Source: Brevibacterium sanguinis
Lineage (GTDB): Bacteria > Actinomycetota > Actinomycetes > Actinomycetales > Brevibacteriaceae
Length of the DNA stretch: 64,000 nt
Direction: 5' to 3'
Assembly (NCBI RefSeq): GCF_003315415.1
Contig: NZ_QNSB01000004.1
Span: forward strand, 124,001 to 188,000
Shown: in pieces, positions 25,191-32,408 of the stretch
Layout of the letters: the number at the start of each line of letters is the position of its first letter
Numbering within the stretch: position 1 is the first letter of the stretch
Program-made: the position numbers and the translations under genes
The notes under the pieces: model-generated
Databases searched by the model: none
What the model was told of the DNA's origin: nothing
Seen by the model: only the letters and a program-made list of their open reading frames with translations

Positions 25191-25256
25191 CACGACTCCC
25201 AGGGTAGTCGAGCGAGTAGAGTTCTCTTCCAAGGACCATCACAAGAGGAGGCGCAG

Positions 25257-27131
25257 ATGAACACCGTCAACTCTGCCGAGCCCGCCGGCAAGCCCACCTA
25301 CGGCGACAGCGAATTCGTCGTCGTCGCGAATCGGCTCCCGGTCGATCGGGACACCTCCGACAACGACGCCGAATGGCGCACCTCACCAGGAGGTCTGGTC
25401 ACGGCCGTGGCTCCGGTGATGAAGGCCCACGCAGGGGCGTGGATCGGCTGGACCGGCGTCGCCGATGTCGACTTCGACCCGTTCACGATCGACGGCATGC
25501 ACCTGATCCCGGTCACCTTGAGCAGTGAGGACGTGCTCAGGTACTACGAAGGATTCTCCAACGCGACGCTGTGGCCGCTCTACCACGACGTCATCGTCAC
25601 CCCGGAGTACCACCGCAAGTGGTGGGAGGCGTACGTGCGCGTCAACAAGCGCTTCGCGGCCAGGGTCGCCGAGGTGGCCGCCGAGGGAGCGACGGTGTGG
25701 GTCCACGACTACCAGCTCCAGCTCGTGCCGCAGCTCGTGCGCCAGCGCAGACCCGACCTGGCGATCGGGTTCTTCAACCACATCCCGTTCCCTCCCTACG
25801 AGCTCTTCGCGCAGCTGCCCTGGCGCGACCAGATCCTCCAGGGCCTCCTCGGCGCGGACCTCATCGGCTTCCAGCGTCCCGCCGACGCCGCGAACTTCCG
25901 CCGGGCGGTGCGCGGTCGGCTCAACTACATGACCAAGGGATCGACGGTCTCGGTGCCGTCCTCGGATTCCCTGCCCGCCCACATCGTGCGCGCGGAGGCA
26001 TTCCCCATCTCCATCGACACCCCCTTCCTCGAGGAGCTCGCCCAGGACCCCAAGATCATCGAGCGGGCCGAGCAGATCCGGCGGGAGGTCGGCAACCCCA
26101 AGGTCATCATGCTCGGCGTCGACCGGATGGACTACACGAAGGGCATCCGGCACCGGCTCAAGGCCTTCGGCGAGCTGCTCGCGGAGAAGAAGCTCAAGGT
26201 CGAGGACGTCGTCCTCATCCAGATCGCCACCCCGTCGCGCGAACGGCTCGAGCAATACAAGATCATCCGCCACGACGTCGAGCTCGCGGTCGGGCGCATC
26301 AACGGTGAGCAGGCGGACGTCGGCGACATCGCCGTCTACTACCTCCACCACTCCTACCCCCGCGACGAGATGACCGCGTTCTTCCTCGCCGCCGACGTCA
26401 TGCTCGTCACCGCGCTGCGCGACGGGATGAACCTCGTGGCGAAGGAGTACGTCGCGTGCCGGACCGACGAGGACGGGGTGCTCGTGCTCTCCGAGTTCAC
26501 GGGTGCGGCCGAGCAGCTGCGCGGAGCCGTGCTCGTCAACCCGCACGACATCGCCGACCTCAAGGCCGGCATCGTCGACGCCGTGCACATGGATGCGAAG
26601 ACCAAGCGGCGCCGGATGCGCCAGATGCGCAAGAAGGTCGCCTCCGACACCGTGAGCGTGTGGTCCCAGAGATTCCTCACCGAGCTGCGCGCGATCCGCA
26701 CCCACCCCGACGACGTCACCCGGGGGGAGCCGGTCGTCGCGGACCCGATCGACGAGGAGGCCTCCGAGATCGTGCCGACGTCGCTGGAGACGGCTGCCGC
26801 CACGGAAGCCGCCGAGGCGGCACCCACCATGGCCGATGCTCCCGCGACCACCGAGGCCGCGCCGACGCCCGAGGCCGCCGTACCGGAAACCGCCGAGGCA
26901 CCCGACCGGGAAGCCGCCGAGACGGCACCCACCGCAGAGACCCCGGCCGATGCCGACCCCAAGGCCGCAGGGGTGGCACCGCCCGTCGCCTCCGCGTCGA
27001 CCTCGGGTCCGACCGTGCCCCTGGGCGCCTCGGCCCCGGCCGATCCCACATCGGGAACCGAGAGCCGGGCGAGCTTCAGCACCGTCTCCGCGACGAGCCC
27101 GTCCGCCTCCCCCCGCTCCTTCGACGCATAG
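25257..27131 (+). CDS. otsA: Trehalose-6-phosphate synthase
   Basis: This is a family GT20 glycosyltransferase making trehalose 6-phosphate from a nucleotide-glucose donor and glucose 6-phosphate. Family motifs are seen in order: VVANRLPV, SPGGLVTA, GWTG, VWVHDYQLQLVPQ, FFNHIPFPPYE, DLIGFQ, GVDRMDYTKGI and DGMNLVAKEYVA. The enzyme part ends near residue 482; the last 140 residues are an Ala/Pro/Thr/Glu-rich, probably disordered tail absent from typical OtsA. The start is ATG 25257 with AAGAGGAGG; the frame is open upstream only as a GC-rich antisense artefact. otsB follows after 7 bp. Confidence 0.95.
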   Translation: MNTVNSAEPAGKPTYGDSEFVVVANRLPVDRDTSDNDAEWRTSPGGLVTAVAPVMKAHAGAWIGWTGVADVDFDPFTIDGMHLIPVTLSSEDVLRYYEGFSNATLWPLYHDVIVTPEYHRKWWEAYVRVNKRFAARVAEVAAEGATVWVHDYQLQLVPQLVRQRRPDLAIGFFNHIPFPPYELFAQLPWRDQILQGLLGADLIGFQRPADAANFRRAVRGRLNYMTKGSTVSVPSSDSLPAHIVRAEAFPISIDTPFLEELAQDPKIIERAEQIRREVGNPKVIMLGVDRMDYTKGIRHRLKAFGELLAEKKLKVEDVVLIQIATPSRERLEQYKIIRHDVELAVGRINGEQADVGDIAVYYLHHSYPRDEMTAFFLAADVMLVTALRDGMNLVAKEYVACRTDEDGVLVLSEFTGAAEQLRGAVLVNPHDIADLKAGIVDAVHMDAKTKRRRMRQMRKKVASDTVSVWSQRFLTELRAIRTHPDDVTRGEPVVADPIDEEASEIVPTSLETAAATEAAEAAPTMADAPATTEAAPTPEAAVPETAEAPDREAAETAPTAETPADADPKAAGVAPPVASASTSGPTVPLGASAPADPTSGTESRASFSTVSATSPSASPRSFDA

Positions 27132-27138
27132 GACATCC

Positions 27139-28032
27139 GTGGCTTCCCTCACTCCTGATTTCACCGCCGTGGGCGACGTCGACCTGCGTGCCCTGGCGAG
27201 CGCGGACCGCCTCCTCATCGGCCTCGACTTCGACGGCGTGCTCGCCCCGCTGCAGGACGATCCCGCGACGAGCCGGATGCTCGACGGCTCGTCCCGGGCG
27301 ATCGCCCGGCTGAGCCGGATCCCCGGCACCCGGGTGGCCCTCGTCTCCGGCCGCGACGCCGCGACCCTGCGTCGGCTCGCCGATCCCGGCCCCGGCGTGT
27401 GGCTGATCGGCTCGCACGGCGCCGAGGTGGACTTCGGCGCCGACGGCGACGTCGTCTCCCCGATCCGCGGCGACTCGGCGGCCGGCTCCGAGGTCGGCGC
27501 CCCGGGTGCGGGGGAACCCGCCGTCCAGGACCCGCCCATGCTCACCCCCGCCGAGCAGGAGATGCTCGAGGCGATCGACTCCCACATCGCGACGTTCGAG
27601 CACACGGTGCCCGAGCACAGCGACATGGAGATCCGGGTCGAGCACAAGCCGTTCGCCCGGACCGTGCACACCCGGGGCCTCGACCAGACCTTCGCCTCCG
27701 ACCTCCATGAGCACGTCGTCCAGGTGCAGAAGGAGCACCCGGGCATCCGCGTCATCGAGGGCCACGACATCGTCGAGCTCTCGGTCAAGCGCGCGACGAA
27801 GGGCGACGGGATGCACATCCTCGCCGAGGCGTTCGCCCCGCAGGCGACCCTCTACCTCGGCGACGACGTCACCGACGAGGATGCGTTCGCCCAGCTCGAA
27901 TCGGTGCCCGGCAGCGTCGGGATCAAGGTCGGGCCCTCGCCGACCCGGGCGGGCCTGCGCATCGCGGACCCCGAGGCGGTCGCCGAGCTCCTGCTGCGCC
28001 TGGCCGAGGAGCGCGAGCGCCTGCGGTCCTGA
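27139..28032 (+). CDS. otsB: Trehalose-6-phosphate phosphatase
   Basis: This HAD-superfamily phosphatase removes phosphate from trehalose 6-phosphate, completing trehalose synthesis with OtsA. The nucleophile motif is LDFDGVLAP (Asp30, Asp32), motif II is LVSGRDAATL, motif III includes the Lys in SVKRATKGDG and motif IV is LGDDVTDEDAF. The 297-residue length fits. The start is GTG 27139. It shares a transcript with otsA. Confidence 0.95.
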   Translation: MASLTPDFTAVGDVDLRALASADRLLIGLDFDGVLAPLQDDPATSRMLDGSSRAIARLSRIPGTRVALVSGRDAATLRRLADPGPGVWLIGSHGAEVDFGADGDVVSPIRGDSAAGSEVGAPGAGEPAVQDPPMLTPAEQEMLEAIDSHIATFEHTVPEHSDMEIRVEHKPFARTVHTRGLDQTFASDLHEHVVQVQKEHPGIRVIEGHDIVELSVKRATKGDGMHILAEAFAPQATLYLGDDVTDEDAFAQLESVPGSVGIKVGPSPTRAGLRIADPEAVAELLLRLAEERERLRS

Positions 28033-28033
28033 A

Positions 28034-28082
28034 CCGTCACCGCCGCTGAACCTTCACCGCCTTTGAGCCGTCACCGCCGCTG
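28034..28082. repeat. Three 15-bp copies in 17-bp period
   Basis: CCGTCACCGCCGCTG at 28034 and 28068 flanks a diverged copy CCTTCACCGCCTTTG at 28051. The run fills the convergent gap between otsB and the LacI gene and includes the latter's stop codon. Confidence 0.65.
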
Positions 28083-29141
28083 GGGTGGGACGGCGCTGGC
28101 CCGCAGCACGAGGTCCGGGGTGATCGAGTAGTCGACCGGGACCGCCTCGGCGGGGTCGGCCATCATCGTCAGCACCTCGTGGAGGGCCGACTCCGCCACC
28201 GTCTCCCAGTCGTAGCTGACCTGCGACAGGGGCGGGGCGATGACATCGGCGTCGGGCATGTCCCCGACCGTGAGCAGGGACAGGTCGCGCGGCACGTCGA
28301 GGCGTGCACGGGCCGCCGCCTCGAGCACCCCGAACGACAGCGAGGGCGCGCACGCGATCACCGCCGAGCACCGGACGTCGAGCAGCTCCTCGGCCGCGGC
28401 GACCCCGGCCATCGTCCCGCCCGTCGCCTCGACGATGGGCGCCTGATCGCGGGTGGCGGGGATGTGGAGGATGCTCGCCATCGCCTTGCGGAAGGCGGCG
28501 ATGCGGCCCGCGGCGGCGGAGTCCCGGAGCACGGCGAGCCCGATCCGGCGATGCCCGAGGTGGACGAGATGCTGGACGGCGGTGGCGATGCCGTCGGCCG
28601 CGTCGAGGACGATGCGGGAGATCCCGTCGGAGTGCCGGGCGTTGGAGATCCGGATCTGCGGCAGCCCCAGCTCCTGCAGCCGCGCGGCGAGCTCACCGGC
28701 CGCTCCCCCGCCGAGGACGAGGGCGGCGCCCACGCTCTCACCGGTGCCGTCGGCCCCGACGAGCGACCTGGCGAGGTCGTCGCCGCGGCCGGGAACCGCC
28801 TCGACGTGGACCGCGGCGATCCGCTGGGCGAAGATCCTGTCGGTGAGGATCTGGAACAGCCGGGCATAGGGGTCGACGTTGCCCGCCGGCACCGAGGGAC
28901 GCGCGAGCGCGATCATCGGGATCTCTCGCCGCGTCGTCGCCTCCGCCTCGACGCCCATGACCGCCAGGGCCCGCCGCACCTTCGCCAGCGACGCCGCCGA
29001 GACGGAGCCAGGGTCACGGAGGGCGCGCGAGGCCGTCGCCTTCGACACCGTGGCGATCGCGGCGATGTCGCCGAGCCGCACGGTCCGGTGCTGGCGCAGT
29101 CGGGCGAGCACGGACTCGTCCGGACCGGGGGTGCCGTTCAT
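28071..29141 (-). CDS. LacI family transcriptional regulator
   Basis: This is a 356-residue repressor-type regulator: N-terminal helix-turn-helix (LGDIAAIATVSKATASRALRD) and the hinge helix near AKVRRALAVMGV, then a periplasmic-binding-like sugar domain to about residue 340. Its ATG overlaps the stop of a second LacI gene in ATGA. The effector is unknown; the neighbouring trehalose genes make a sugar likely. Confidence 0.92.
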   Translation of the reverse strand: MNGTPGPDESVLARLRQHRTVRLGDIAAIATVSKATASRALRDPGSVSAASLAKVRRALAVMGVEAEATTRREIPMIALARPSVPAGNVDPYARLFQILTDRIFAQRIAAVHVEAVPGRGDDLARSLVGADGTGESVGAALVLGGGAAGELAARLQELGLPQIRISNARHSDGISRIVLDAADGIATAVQHLVHLGHRRIGLAVLRDSAAAGRIAAFRKAMASILHIPATRDQAPIVEATGGTMAGVAAAEELLDVRCSAVIACAPSLSFGVLEAAARARLDVPRDLSLLTVGDMPDADVIAPPLSQVSYDWETVAESALHEVLTMMADPAEAVPVDYSITPDLVLRASAVPPQRR

Positions 29142-30118
29142 CGGCGGGCCGCCGTCGTCGAGGCGCGGGCATAGAGGCGGGGCCGGAACACGGGCGGGAC
29201 CGACCGGGACGCCTCGTCGGTGATCCGCAGGGTGCTCAGCGTCGCCTCGACGAGCGCCTGGGAGAGGCCGTCGAGGTCGAGGCCGAGCACCGTGGCCGGG
29301 GGGCCGGTGAACCGCATCGTCGGCGAGTCCCCGAAGCCGACGACCGACATGTCCCGGGGCACCTGCAGCTGTCGGCTGCGCAGACCGTGGAGCGCGCCGT
29401 GCAGCTGGAGCTGGGACTGGACGATCACGGCGGTGCAGGTCGCGTCCTTGAGCTCGAGGGCGGCCCTGGTCCCGCCGGAGAAGGACTTGGGCACCCGCGC
29501 GATCCAGTCGTCGAGGTTGAGCCCGAACGAGCGGGCCGGGTGGTCGGCGCGGAACCGCCTGATCAGCTGCACGGCGAGCTCACCGCTGTCGTTGCAGATG
29601 AGTCCGATGCGCCGGTGCCCGATCGCGCGCAGATGCTCGAAGGCCGTCGTCATCCCGCCGCCGAGGTCGAGGCGGGCGGCGATGATGTCGCCGGTCGAGT
29701 CGTCCGCGGTTCCCGCCGACTGCTCGTCGACCCTGATGCACGGGATGTCCGTGCCCAGGCTGGTCAGGGTCGGGGTGACGAGCGCCACCGCGCCGGCGGC
29801 GATGGCGATCTCGAGCGGAGCCGTCTCGGTCTCGACCGGCGGGCGGGTGATGAGCAGGCCGTGGTCCTGCAGGGCGGTGGCCACACGGGTGCACACCTGG
29901 ACCTGCCAGTACTCGGGGTTGCCGGGGGCGCTGACGGCCACGAGCCGCCTCGGCGCGGTCCGCAGCAGCGTCGACCGCGAGTAGCCGAGCTCGTCCATGG
30001 CCGCGAAGACCCTCGCCCGGGTCGCCGCGGCGACCCGACCGCGGTTGCCGAGCACCCGCGAGACGGTGGCCAGGGACACTCCCGCCCGGGCCGCGACGTC
30101 GTCGAGCTTGACCTTCAT
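29138..30118 (-). CDS. LacI family transcriptional regulator
   Basis: This is a 326-residue LacI-type regulator. The start is ATG 30118 (MKVKLDDVAARAGVS), giving the classic helix-turn-helix LDDVAARAGVSLATVSRVL and the hinge TRARVFAAMDELGYS. The sugar-binding domain follows. It is the first gene of the two-regulator unit and is divergent from the ABC-like ATPase gene; the 259-bp intergenic region 30119-30377 between them is the obvious place for its operator. Confidence 0.92.
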   Translation of the reverse strand: MKVKLDDVAARAGVSLATVSRVLGNRGRVAAATRARVFAAMDELGYSRSTLLRTAPRRLVAVSAPGNPEYWQVQVCTRVATALQDHGLLITRPPVETETAPLEIAIAAGAVALVTPTLTSLGTDIPCIRVDEQSAGTADDSTGDIIAARLDLGGGMTTAFEHLRAIGHRRIGLICNDSGELAVQLIRRFRADHPARSFGLNLDDWIARVPKSFSGGTRAALELKDATCTAVIVQSQLQLHGALHGLRSRQLQVPRDMSVVGFGDSPTMRFTGPPATVLGLDLDGLSQALVEATLSTLRITDEASRSVPPVFRPRLYARASTTAARR

Positions 30119-30377
30119 ACCGCAGAGTCTACTGTCGGGACCTCCCGCCCCTTGAGCACCTTGGCCGCTGCCGGCCCGCGCCGCGGCGGGCGGATGAGCA
30201 CAAGCTGACCGGCAGGTGACATGGGGCTGTCGGCGGACTGGCACAGTGCTGAGAATCACCCCTGCCACCCCGGGATCGGCGAGACTCACCCGGACTCCTC
30301 CGCTTAGGATGGACAGGACTGAGCATCCCCGCCAGGTCACCGACGACCAGCTGCTCATGACGAACGTAGGAGGAAGT

Positions 30378-31085
30378 ATGTCAACAGTGTCGTTGAATGG
30401 CCTCAGTCACACGTACGAGAACACCGTCTCACCCTCGGTCCATCCCTTCAGCCTGTTCATCGACGACGGTGAGTTCCTCGTCCTCTACGGCCCGACCGGA
30501 TCGGGCAAGTCGACGATCCTGAGGATGCTCCACGGGCTCGAGCAGCCGAAGACCGGTTCGATCCTCATCGACGGGGTCGACGTCACGCAGGCCGCGGTCA
30601 ACGACCGGGACGTGACCCTCGCACTCGAGAGCTACGCCCTCTACCCGCACATGAGCGTGCGCGACAACCTCGGCTTCGCCCTGCGCGTCGACGGGCTGCC
30701 CGACGAGGAGATCCGCTCCCGCGTCGAATCCGTGACCTCGAAGATCGGGCTCAGCGACATCCTCGACTCCAAGCCCGGGGACCTCTCGCAGCTGCAGCGG
30801 CAGACGATCGCCTTGGCCCGGGCCGTCGTCCGCCAGCCCAAGGTGCTCATCATGGACGAACCCGTCGTCAACCTCGTGCCGGAGGACCAGGCCGACACCC
30901 TCAGGCTCGTCAAGGACCTCCAGCAGGAGTTCCGGCTGACGACCCTCTACGCGACCGCGAACCTCGAGGACGCGAAGGTCCTCGGCGACCGGATCGCCTA
31001 CCTCGAGAACGGGCGGCTGATCGGGGTGGAGAAGCCGGAGGTCGCCGAGGCGCTCGTCGCCTCGGGCTCGGACGCGGACCTCTGA
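30378..31085 (+). CDS. Degenerate MalK-like ABC ATPase
   Basis: This is a 235-residue ABC-type nucleotide-binding domain. Walker A (GPTGSGKST, 38-46) and Walker B (VLIMDE, 156-161) are intact and the YALYPHMSV segment marks a MalK/UgpC relative. The Q-loop Gln is Glu84, the signature is LSQLQ instead of LSGGQ (136-140), the D-loop reads NLV, and the H-loop His is Ala194 in YATANL. The C-terminal regulatory domain of MalK is absent. No permease gene is near. The start has AGGAGGAAGT. It probably binds ATP but is unlikely to power transport in the normal way. It is followed after 3 bp by the DUF4032 gene. Confidence 0.9.
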   Translation: MSTVSLNGLSHTYENTVSPSVHPFSLFIDDGEFLVLYGPTGSGKSTILRMLHGLEQPKTGSILIDGVDVTQAAVNDRDVTLALESYALYPHMSVRDNLGFALRVDGLPDEEIRSRVESVTSKIGLSDILDSKPGDLSQLQRQTIALARAVVRQPKVLIMDEPVVNLVPEDQADTLRLVKDLQQEFRLTTLYATANLEDAKVLGDRIAYLENGRLIGVEKPEVAEALVASGSDADL

Positions 31086-31088
31086 TCG

Positions 31089-32408
31089 GTGCCCGTGCCC
31101 GAACCGCCGCGGATCCATGCGGTCCACCGCGCCGACCACGCGGCGATCGCCGAGCTGCCCTGGCATCTGCCGCTCAAGGACTGGCCCGAGCAGTTCCTCG
31201 GCGGTCTGCCCCGCGGGATCTCCCGCCATGTCGTGCGCTTCGTCGAGATCGGCGATGAGGTCCTGGCGATCAAGGAGACCGAGGACGATCGGGCCCGGCG
31301 CGAGTTCGACATCCTCGGCGTGCTCGGCAACCTCGACGTGCCCACCGTCGAGACCCGCGCGATCGTCACGAACCGGGTGACCGACTCCGGTCAGCCCCTG
31401 CCGGGCGCCCTCATCACCGCCTACCTCGACTTCTCCCTGCCGTACCGGGCCCTGTTCTCCCGCTCGCTGGCCGAGGACACGACCGGCCGCCTCGTCGACG
31501 CCCTCGCCGTGCTCCTCGCCCGGCTCCACCTCGTCGGGTTCTACTGGGGTGACGTGTCGCTGTCGAACACGCTGTTCCGCCGCGACGCCGACGCCTACGC
31601 CGCCTACGTCGTCGACGCCGAGACCGGAGAGCTCCACGATCAGCTCTCCCCCGGCCAGCGGGAGATGGATCTGCGGATCGCGCGGACGAACATCGCCGGG
31701 GACTTCCTCGACCTCCAGGCCGGCGGGGTCGTCGATCCGGGCGTCGATCCGCTCGCGGCCAGCGACCGGCTGCTCGAGGCGTACAACGGGCTGTGGGCCG
31801 AGCTCACCCGTGTCGAGGAGTTCGCGATCAACGAGCGCTGGCGCATCGACGAGCGCATCCGCCGCCTCAACGACCTCGGCTTCGACCTCGGCGAGCTCAC
31901 CGTCACCACCGACCTCGACGGGGTCAGTCTCCTCGTCGAGCCGAAGGTCGTCGAGCCCAACCACCATTCGCGCCGGCTGCTGCGCTTGACCGGGATCGGG
32001 GCGAACGAGAACCAGGCCCGGGCGATGCTCAACGACCTCGACGCCTACCGGTCGGAGGCGGGAGCCGACGAGAGGGCCCGGGCGGGGGCGGACCGCTCCC
32101 TCGCCGCGTCTCCCGGGTTCGGCGGCGCCCATGGGTCCGGCGGGTCCCCCGTCGAGCTCAGCGAGGAGGAGGCGGCCCGGATCTGGCTCGCCGAGGTCTA
32201 CAAGCCCCTCATCGACGCGATCCCCGGCAGCCTGGCGAACAAGCTCGAGCCCGCGCAGATCTTCTACGAGTTCGTCGAGCACCGCCGCGCGATGGCCCAC
32301 GCCCGCCAGCGCGACGTCCCGTTCCGGGAGGCGATCGCGTACTTCATCATGGACGACCTCGCCAAGCTGCCCGACGAGTCCCGGTACGTCGACAGCAGGC
32401 AGTTCTGA
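31089..32408 (+). CDS. DUF4032 protein with kinase-like domain
   Basis: This is a 439-residue DUF4032 protein. The N-terminal 190 residues look like a protein-kinase or lipopolysaccharide-kinase fold: Lys62 in LAIKET, Glu72 in RREFDIL, Asp156 and Asn161 in WGDVSLSNTLF, and Asp178 in VVDAET. The C-terminal half is helical, with a short Ala/Gly-rich insert near 320-355, and ends ESRYVDSRQF. No membrane segment is seen. The GTG start lies 3 bp after the ABC-like gene. The substrate is unknown. Confidence 0.85.
   Translation: MPVPEPPRIHAVHRADHAAIAELPWHLPLKDWPEQFLGGLPRGISRHVVRFVEIGDEVLAIKETEDDRARREFDILGVLGNLDVPTVETRAIVTNRVTDSGQPLPGALITAYLDFSLPYRALFSRSLAEDTTGRLVDALAVLLARLHLVGFYWGDVSLSNTLFRRDADAYAAYVVDAETGELHDQLSPGQREMDLRIARTNIAGDFLDLQAGGVVDPGVDPLAASDRLLEAYNGLWAELTRVEEFAINERWRIDERIRRLNDLGFDLGELTVTTDLDGVSLLVEPKVVEPNHHSRRLLRLTGIGANENQARAMLNDLDAYRSEAGADERARAGADRSLAASPGFGGAHGSGGSPVELSEEEAARIWLAEVYKPLIDAIPGSLANKLEPAQIFYEFVEHRRAMAHARQRDVPFREAIAYFIMDDLAKLPDESRYVDSRQF

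Follow-up and report, generated by a model that had tools for sequence, protein, structure and literature searches.

The window, as I will call the whole 64,000-nucleotide stretch of Brevibacterium sanguinis DNA that was analysed, carries on its forward strand two genes separated by 3 bp. The first (30378..31085) encodes a degenerate MsiK-like ABC ATPase of 235 amino acids and the second (31089..32408) a protein of 439 amino acids of the DUF4032 family. Adjoining the pair and divergent from it is a gene for a LacI-family regulator (29138..30121, reverse strand), followed by a second LacI-family gene (28071..29141, reverse strand) and by otsA and otsB (25200..28032, forward strand), which serve trehalose synthesis and are conserved neighbors of the msiK-DUF4032 locus. 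An earlier note on this DNA had described the layout in much the same way, and the description holds up: the 3-bp spacing follows from the coordinates (31085 and 31089), Pfam confirms the divergent LacI genes and otsA/otsB, and, as claimed, none of the genes examined on either side (about 25-39.5 kb) encodes an ABC permease. The permease near the pair is an amino-acid permease. A subunit of an importer should have its cognate permease in the operon or the genome, and this operon contains none.

The junction of the two genes (31083-31091) consists of the stop codon of the ABC gene, one further codon and a GTG start, all in frame. This arrangement is kept in 29 of 30 Brevibacterium genomes and is consistent with tight co-translation. 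Read-through of the stop codon to give a natural fusion was considered and rejected, since three of the 30 genomes have TAA rather than TGA at the junction and nothing else indicates read-through.

Ahead of the pair lies a conserved -10-like sequence, TAGGAT (30305..30310, forward strand), and after it a conserved 5' leader of 40 nt (30318..30357, forward strand) containing the inverted repeat TGAGCA...TGCTCA. The leader, ACTGAGCATCCCCGCCAGGTCACCGACGACCAGCTGCTCA, is almost invariant across about 30 species of Brevibacterium and occupies the place of the msiK RNA of other genera. A search of Rfam with the leader gave no match, and no convincing covariation was found in it, its base pairs being nearly invariant. 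Leader and TAGGAT together (30305-30357) may serve as an operator bound by the divergent LacI protein or as a 5' RNA element. A second conserved stretch (30200-30300), containing GTGCTGAGAATCACTCTACGC, is found further upstream in the same lacI-ATPase intergenic region of 12 species and is a candidate LacI operator.

The nucleotide-binding domain and its kinase-like neighbor

The ATPase matches PF00005 with 100.1 bits (gathering cut-off 25), and its closest relatives in the PDB are MalK and SugC, the former providing the functional roles of the positions compared here. Against the NCBIfam model UgpC it scores 198 bits, as compared to a cut-off of 432 bits, and covers positions 1-219 of the 357 in the profile. 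The earlier note held that both Walker motifs were intact, and they are: Walker A is GPTGSGKST (residues 38-46; 30489..30515) and Walker B is LIMDEP (residues 157-162; 30846..30863). The losses it listed are equally real. The Q-loop position (MalK Gln82) is E84, within ALESYALYPH (30627..30629), the signature reads LSQLQRQ (residues 136-142; 30783..30803) instead of LSGGQRQ, the D-loop position (MalK Asp165) is V167, within NLVPED (30876..30878), and the H-loop position (MalK His192) is A194, within ATANLED (30957..30959), all on the forward strand. The C-terminal domain of MalK is also gone, as had been said, the 235 amino acids comprising the nucleotide-binding domain only. A functional MsiK keeps all four of the altered motifs and, with its C-terminal regulatory domain, reaches about 360-390 amino acids, so that this protein departs from one in sequence and in size. 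The lost motifs rule out the role of an ordinary transport ATPase, and to this extent the function other than transport proposed earlier is upheld. Unusually well preserved is the segment YALYPHMSVRDNLGFAL (30633..30683, forward strand), whose counterpart in MalK is the groove in which the permease docks.

Among named species, Brevibacterium antiquum, B. aurantiacum and B. renqingii are close relatives. What has been lost and what has been kept can be judged from other degenerate copies. The Q-loop position is Glu in nearly all of them and Asp in two, and 80 of the 171 columns conserved in MsiK are unaltered in the 12 closest. Over 19 degenerate copies, the fraction kept is 0.78 for Walker A, 0.73 for Walker B and 0.75 for the docking segment (84-103 in MalK numbering), as compared to 0.24 for contacts with the trans ATP and across the dimer and 0 for Q82 and H192. 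The tyrosine that contacts adenine is retained in the ATPase of the window. The pattern fits a protein that would bind ATP in cis without dimerisation or hydrolysis.

The C-terminal half of the neighboring protein matches PF13224 with 178 bits (gathering cut-off 23.8), and its N-terminal half matches PF06293 with 22.8 bits (cut-off 21.3). A search of the PDB by sequence found no match. The predicted structure (pLDDT 89.2, pTM 0.87) resembles WaaP (6dfl, E 7e-9) and Bud32 (4ww5, E 2e-8), and the residues K62, E72, D155, N160 and D176 (31272..31616, forward strand) do not vary in 60 actinobacterial sequences; the earlier note had the first two of these right and placed the other three at 156, 161 and 178. 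Judged from the model, the N-terminal half has a kinase fold of the WaaP/Bud32 type with a full set of catalytic residues. Sampling of the order found DUF4032 in 183 of 198 genomes. A search of the open-access literature, incomplete in its coverage, turned up no paper on DUF4032 or PF13224.

The two genes share a reading frame interrupted by a single TGA, so that they could be modelled as one continuous chain, with Trp at the TGA. Both parts fold well in the resulting model (mean pLDDT 89.5), and I claim no interface, because a pTM of 0.68 leaves the placement of the two parts relative to each other uncertain.

MsiK at the corresponding locus of other genera

MsiK is an ATPase common to several sugar importers and encoded apart from their permeases (PMC4890002), and in Corynebacterium glutamicum the gene cg2708, msiK1, is preceded by the msiK RNA (PMC3890552). 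Loci around DUF4032 were compared over 14 kb. In 38 of 40 loci fetched from other families, an intact MsiK/UgpC-type ATPase of 357-396 amino acids lies near DUF4032, in 33 of the 38 less than 900 bp upstream and on the same strand, and an intact full-length copy is present in 71 of the 80 named DUF4032 loci. The earlier note regarded relatives with intact LSGGQ, H-loop and a linked permease as telling against its reading; the intact motifs do exist in these relatives, but no linked permease does, and for an MsiK gene a location away from its permeases is the normal state.

The order otsA-otsB, divergent lacI, ATPase, DUF4032, rlmB, cysS is common, in whole or in part, to many loci of Micrococcales. 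The msiK RNA (RF01747) was found directly upstream of the intact copies checked (L033, L034, L057 and L123). It is present in 133 of 149 genomes of the order, as compared to 3 of 60 in Brevibacteriaceae; one of the three, G527, is a Brevibacterium in which MsiK is intact and DUF4032 is missing. No match to RF01747 was found at 30100-31200, up to an E value of 1, or anywhere else in the genome of B. sanguinis. Two sister genera within the family (G528 and G530) have an intact MsiK with the msiK RNA (L033 and L034), and the degenerate form is found in the genus of the window and in one further genus (G529). The ATPase of the window adjoins DUF4032 and lies between otsAB and rlmB-cysS; it occupies the slot of MsiK, because at this locus elsewhere are found intact MsiK, the same neighborhood and the msiK RNA.

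A tree of nucleotide-binding domains puts the degenerate copies, minus the two most divergent rows, in one clade on a long stem. The AU test allows this clade to be joined with MsiK (p-AU 0.30 and 0.52). Since the tree cannot place the clade, it is chiefly the position of the gene that argues for descent from MsiK. Might a different UgpC-type paralog have taken over the MsiK locus and given rise to the ATPase? The clade does group weakly (support 74) with the intact UgpC-type ATPases of Brevibacterium L118, L119 and L126, but the placement depends on long branches, the AU test rejects descent from the Brevibacterium UgpC paralogs linked to MalFG (p-AU 0.011), and the syntenic slot is that of MsiK. 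I consider such a takeover very unlikely.

The number of potential clients of an MsiK differs greatly between these groups. Searched with one MalF query at E 1e-8, which distant permeases could escape, genomes in which the ATPase is degenerate, a relic or absent encode 0-2 MalF-type permeases, as compared to 11 in G528 and 21 in G530. B. sanguinis has a single MalF/MalG/UgpC importer (G000:C15), encoded elsewhere in the genome. The importer, together with the retained YALYPH docking segment, might suggest that the degenerate ATPase is a transport subunit still, either as one half of a heterodimeric importer whose other half is an intact UgpC-type ATPase or as an inhibitor that plugs the permease. 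However, the importer already has an intact UgpC of its own within its operon, the dimer contacts of the degenerate protein are gone, and no MalF-type permease was found at E 1e-8 in three genomes that have the degenerate ATPase (G346, G360 and G388, the last with an ATPase 93% identical), all of which makes a continued part in transport quite improbable. Taken together, the position, the distribution of the msiK RNA and the permease counts indicate that the ATPase is, very probably, the positional ortholog of MsiK, disarmed while its client importers vanished.

Two further observations concern ATPases of this type. The importer operon of B. sanguinis (G000:C15:44515-47560; L113) is a complete set of MalF, MalG, SBP and UgpC genes, located between genes for an elongation-factor Tu-like protein and ribosomal proteins. 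In another actinobacterial order there are UgpC-like ATPases with altered signatures and with Asn in place of the H-loop His (YATND or YATNE; L107 7895-8932 and L247-L249); the ATPase of L107, an independent degenerate case, is divergent from a DUF4032 gene, an adjacency seen only in G177.

Retention and exceptions within Brevibacterium

Beside DUF4032 in each of 30 further Brevibacterium genomes lies a degenerate ATPase of 233-246 amino acids, and because all 30 carry the same arrangement the pair is far from chance. In comparisons with 11 Brevibacterium species, dN/dS is 0.19 for the ATPase, 0.23 for DUF4032, 0.19 for cysS and 0.15 for rlmB; values for the ATPase within the main clade span 0.12-0.25. 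Estimated over all pairs, dN/dS is 0.155 and 0.20. Amino-acid identity is higher for the ATPase (0.86) than for DUF4032 (0.81). That the ATPase and cysS have equal dN/dS, and that 30 of 30 genomes keep both genes of the pair, speaks against the ATPase being a pseudogene in decay, as far as the main clade is concerned.

The co-occurrence that the earlier note suggested surveying is thus widespread, but it is not universal. G299 and G491 have DUF4032 and no ATPase, while G502 has no DUF4032 and an ATPase still more degenerate, the DEP of Walker B having become DDP. The Walker A lysine is lost in G510. PF13224 is missing from 13 of the 56 genomes of the genus. In G346 and G360 the ATPase is retained, and of DUF4032 the kinase half (PF06293 at E 5e-8 in G346) but not the PF13224 half; in ten others that lack PF13224 the degenerate ATPase is apparently absent too, judging by those of the ten that were read. 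In L117 (6296-7018) and L116, from two Brevibacterium with small genomes, a protein consisting of the kinase half (241 amino acids in L117) adjoins the degenerate ATPase.

These exceptions would be expected if the ATPase were a slowly decaying relic, an MsiK without a job that is disappearing and is held for a time by translational coupling to DUF4032. Several lineages have indeed lost the ATPase, DUF4032 or both, catalytic residues are changed in G510 and G502, and only the kinase half of DUF4032 is left in G346 and G360. Against this stand the main-clade dN/dS, similar to that of the essential neighbor cysS, the higher identity of the ATPase than of its partner and the uniform length of the protein in all 30 genomes, and I think a relic rather unlikely. 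That the gene has been kept intact beside that of a kinase-like protein, despite the loss of its motifs and of the pumps, suggests instead that it has been reused as a regulator.

Proposed role and comparison with known systems

The course of events may be pictured as follows. In related actinobacteria, a single MsiK serves many sugar ABC importers as their ATPase, and the Brevibacterium ATPase is very probably its descendant in a lineage that lost nearly all the importers dependent on it. Comparison shows that the gene has shed the msiK RNA leader, the C-terminal regulatory domain and the residues required for the ATP-sandwich dimer, for hydrolysis and for coupling; both Walker motifs, the tyrosine that contacts adenine and the docking segment have been kept, and the gene is under purifying selection along with DUF4032. 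The product would be a monomer that binds ATP without hydrolysing it, serving as a regulatory or scaffold subunit of the WaaP/Bud32-like kinase whose gene starts 3 bp further on, and it may bind this kinase by way of the former docking groove.

The earlier note had already thought of the pair as an ATP-binding scaffold or sensor and a kinase. Function outside transport, selection and the kinase fold speak for that idea; the fused-chain model, with its pTM of 0.68, gives no placement of one protein on the other. The regulatory partnership itself is argued from co-conservation and gene layout, with the genomes that have one gene and not the other, the lost Walker A lysine of G510 and the genomes lacking PF13224 counting against it, and I regard its chances as even. 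For the explanation as a whole, a disarmed descendant of MsiK turned ATP-binding regulatory partner of a kinase, the balance tips slightly in favor. A similar coupling may exist between DUF4032 and the intact MsiK of other genera, joining sugar import to phosphotransfer. DUF4032 might then be a kinase linked to sugar import and governed by MsiK-type ATPases, of which Brevibacterium retains the signalling half, with a pseudo-ATPase that reports the state of ATP or sugar, but this extension is doubtful. If the explanation is true, the locus provides a dated, stepwise case of a transport ATPase becoming a pseudo-ATPase once its clients were lost, with intact sister genera for comparison, and it points to a nearly order-wide and unstudied link between MsiK and a kinase-like protein.

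Among known systems, the MsiK/UgpC-type ATPases are alike in their slot beside DUF4032 and otsAB, the fold of the nucleotide-binding domain, Walker A and B and the docking segment, and are likewise orphan genes without a linked permease. They differ in having what the ATPase of the window lacks: the RF01747 leader, the C-terminal regulatory domain, LSGGQ, the Q-loop Gln, the D-loop Asp and the H-loop His. TAP is an ABC heterodimer with a degenerate site, and heterodimers of this kind also contain a nucleotide-binding domain that has lost catalytic motifs, but the operon considered here provides neither a transmembrane domain nor a partner nucleotide-binding domain. MalK, a sugar-import ATPase that acts also as a regulator (MalK-MalT), is a precedent for the role proposed, although MalK regulates while transporting and does so through the C-terminal domain that is missing here. 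Finally, the WaaP/Kdo kinases (PF06293) and Bud32/PRPK have in common with the N-terminal half of DUF4032 both the fold and the Lys/Glu/Asp/Asn/Asp set, while DUF4032 has in addition the PF13224 half and, unlike them, resides in neither an LPS nor a KEOPS locus.
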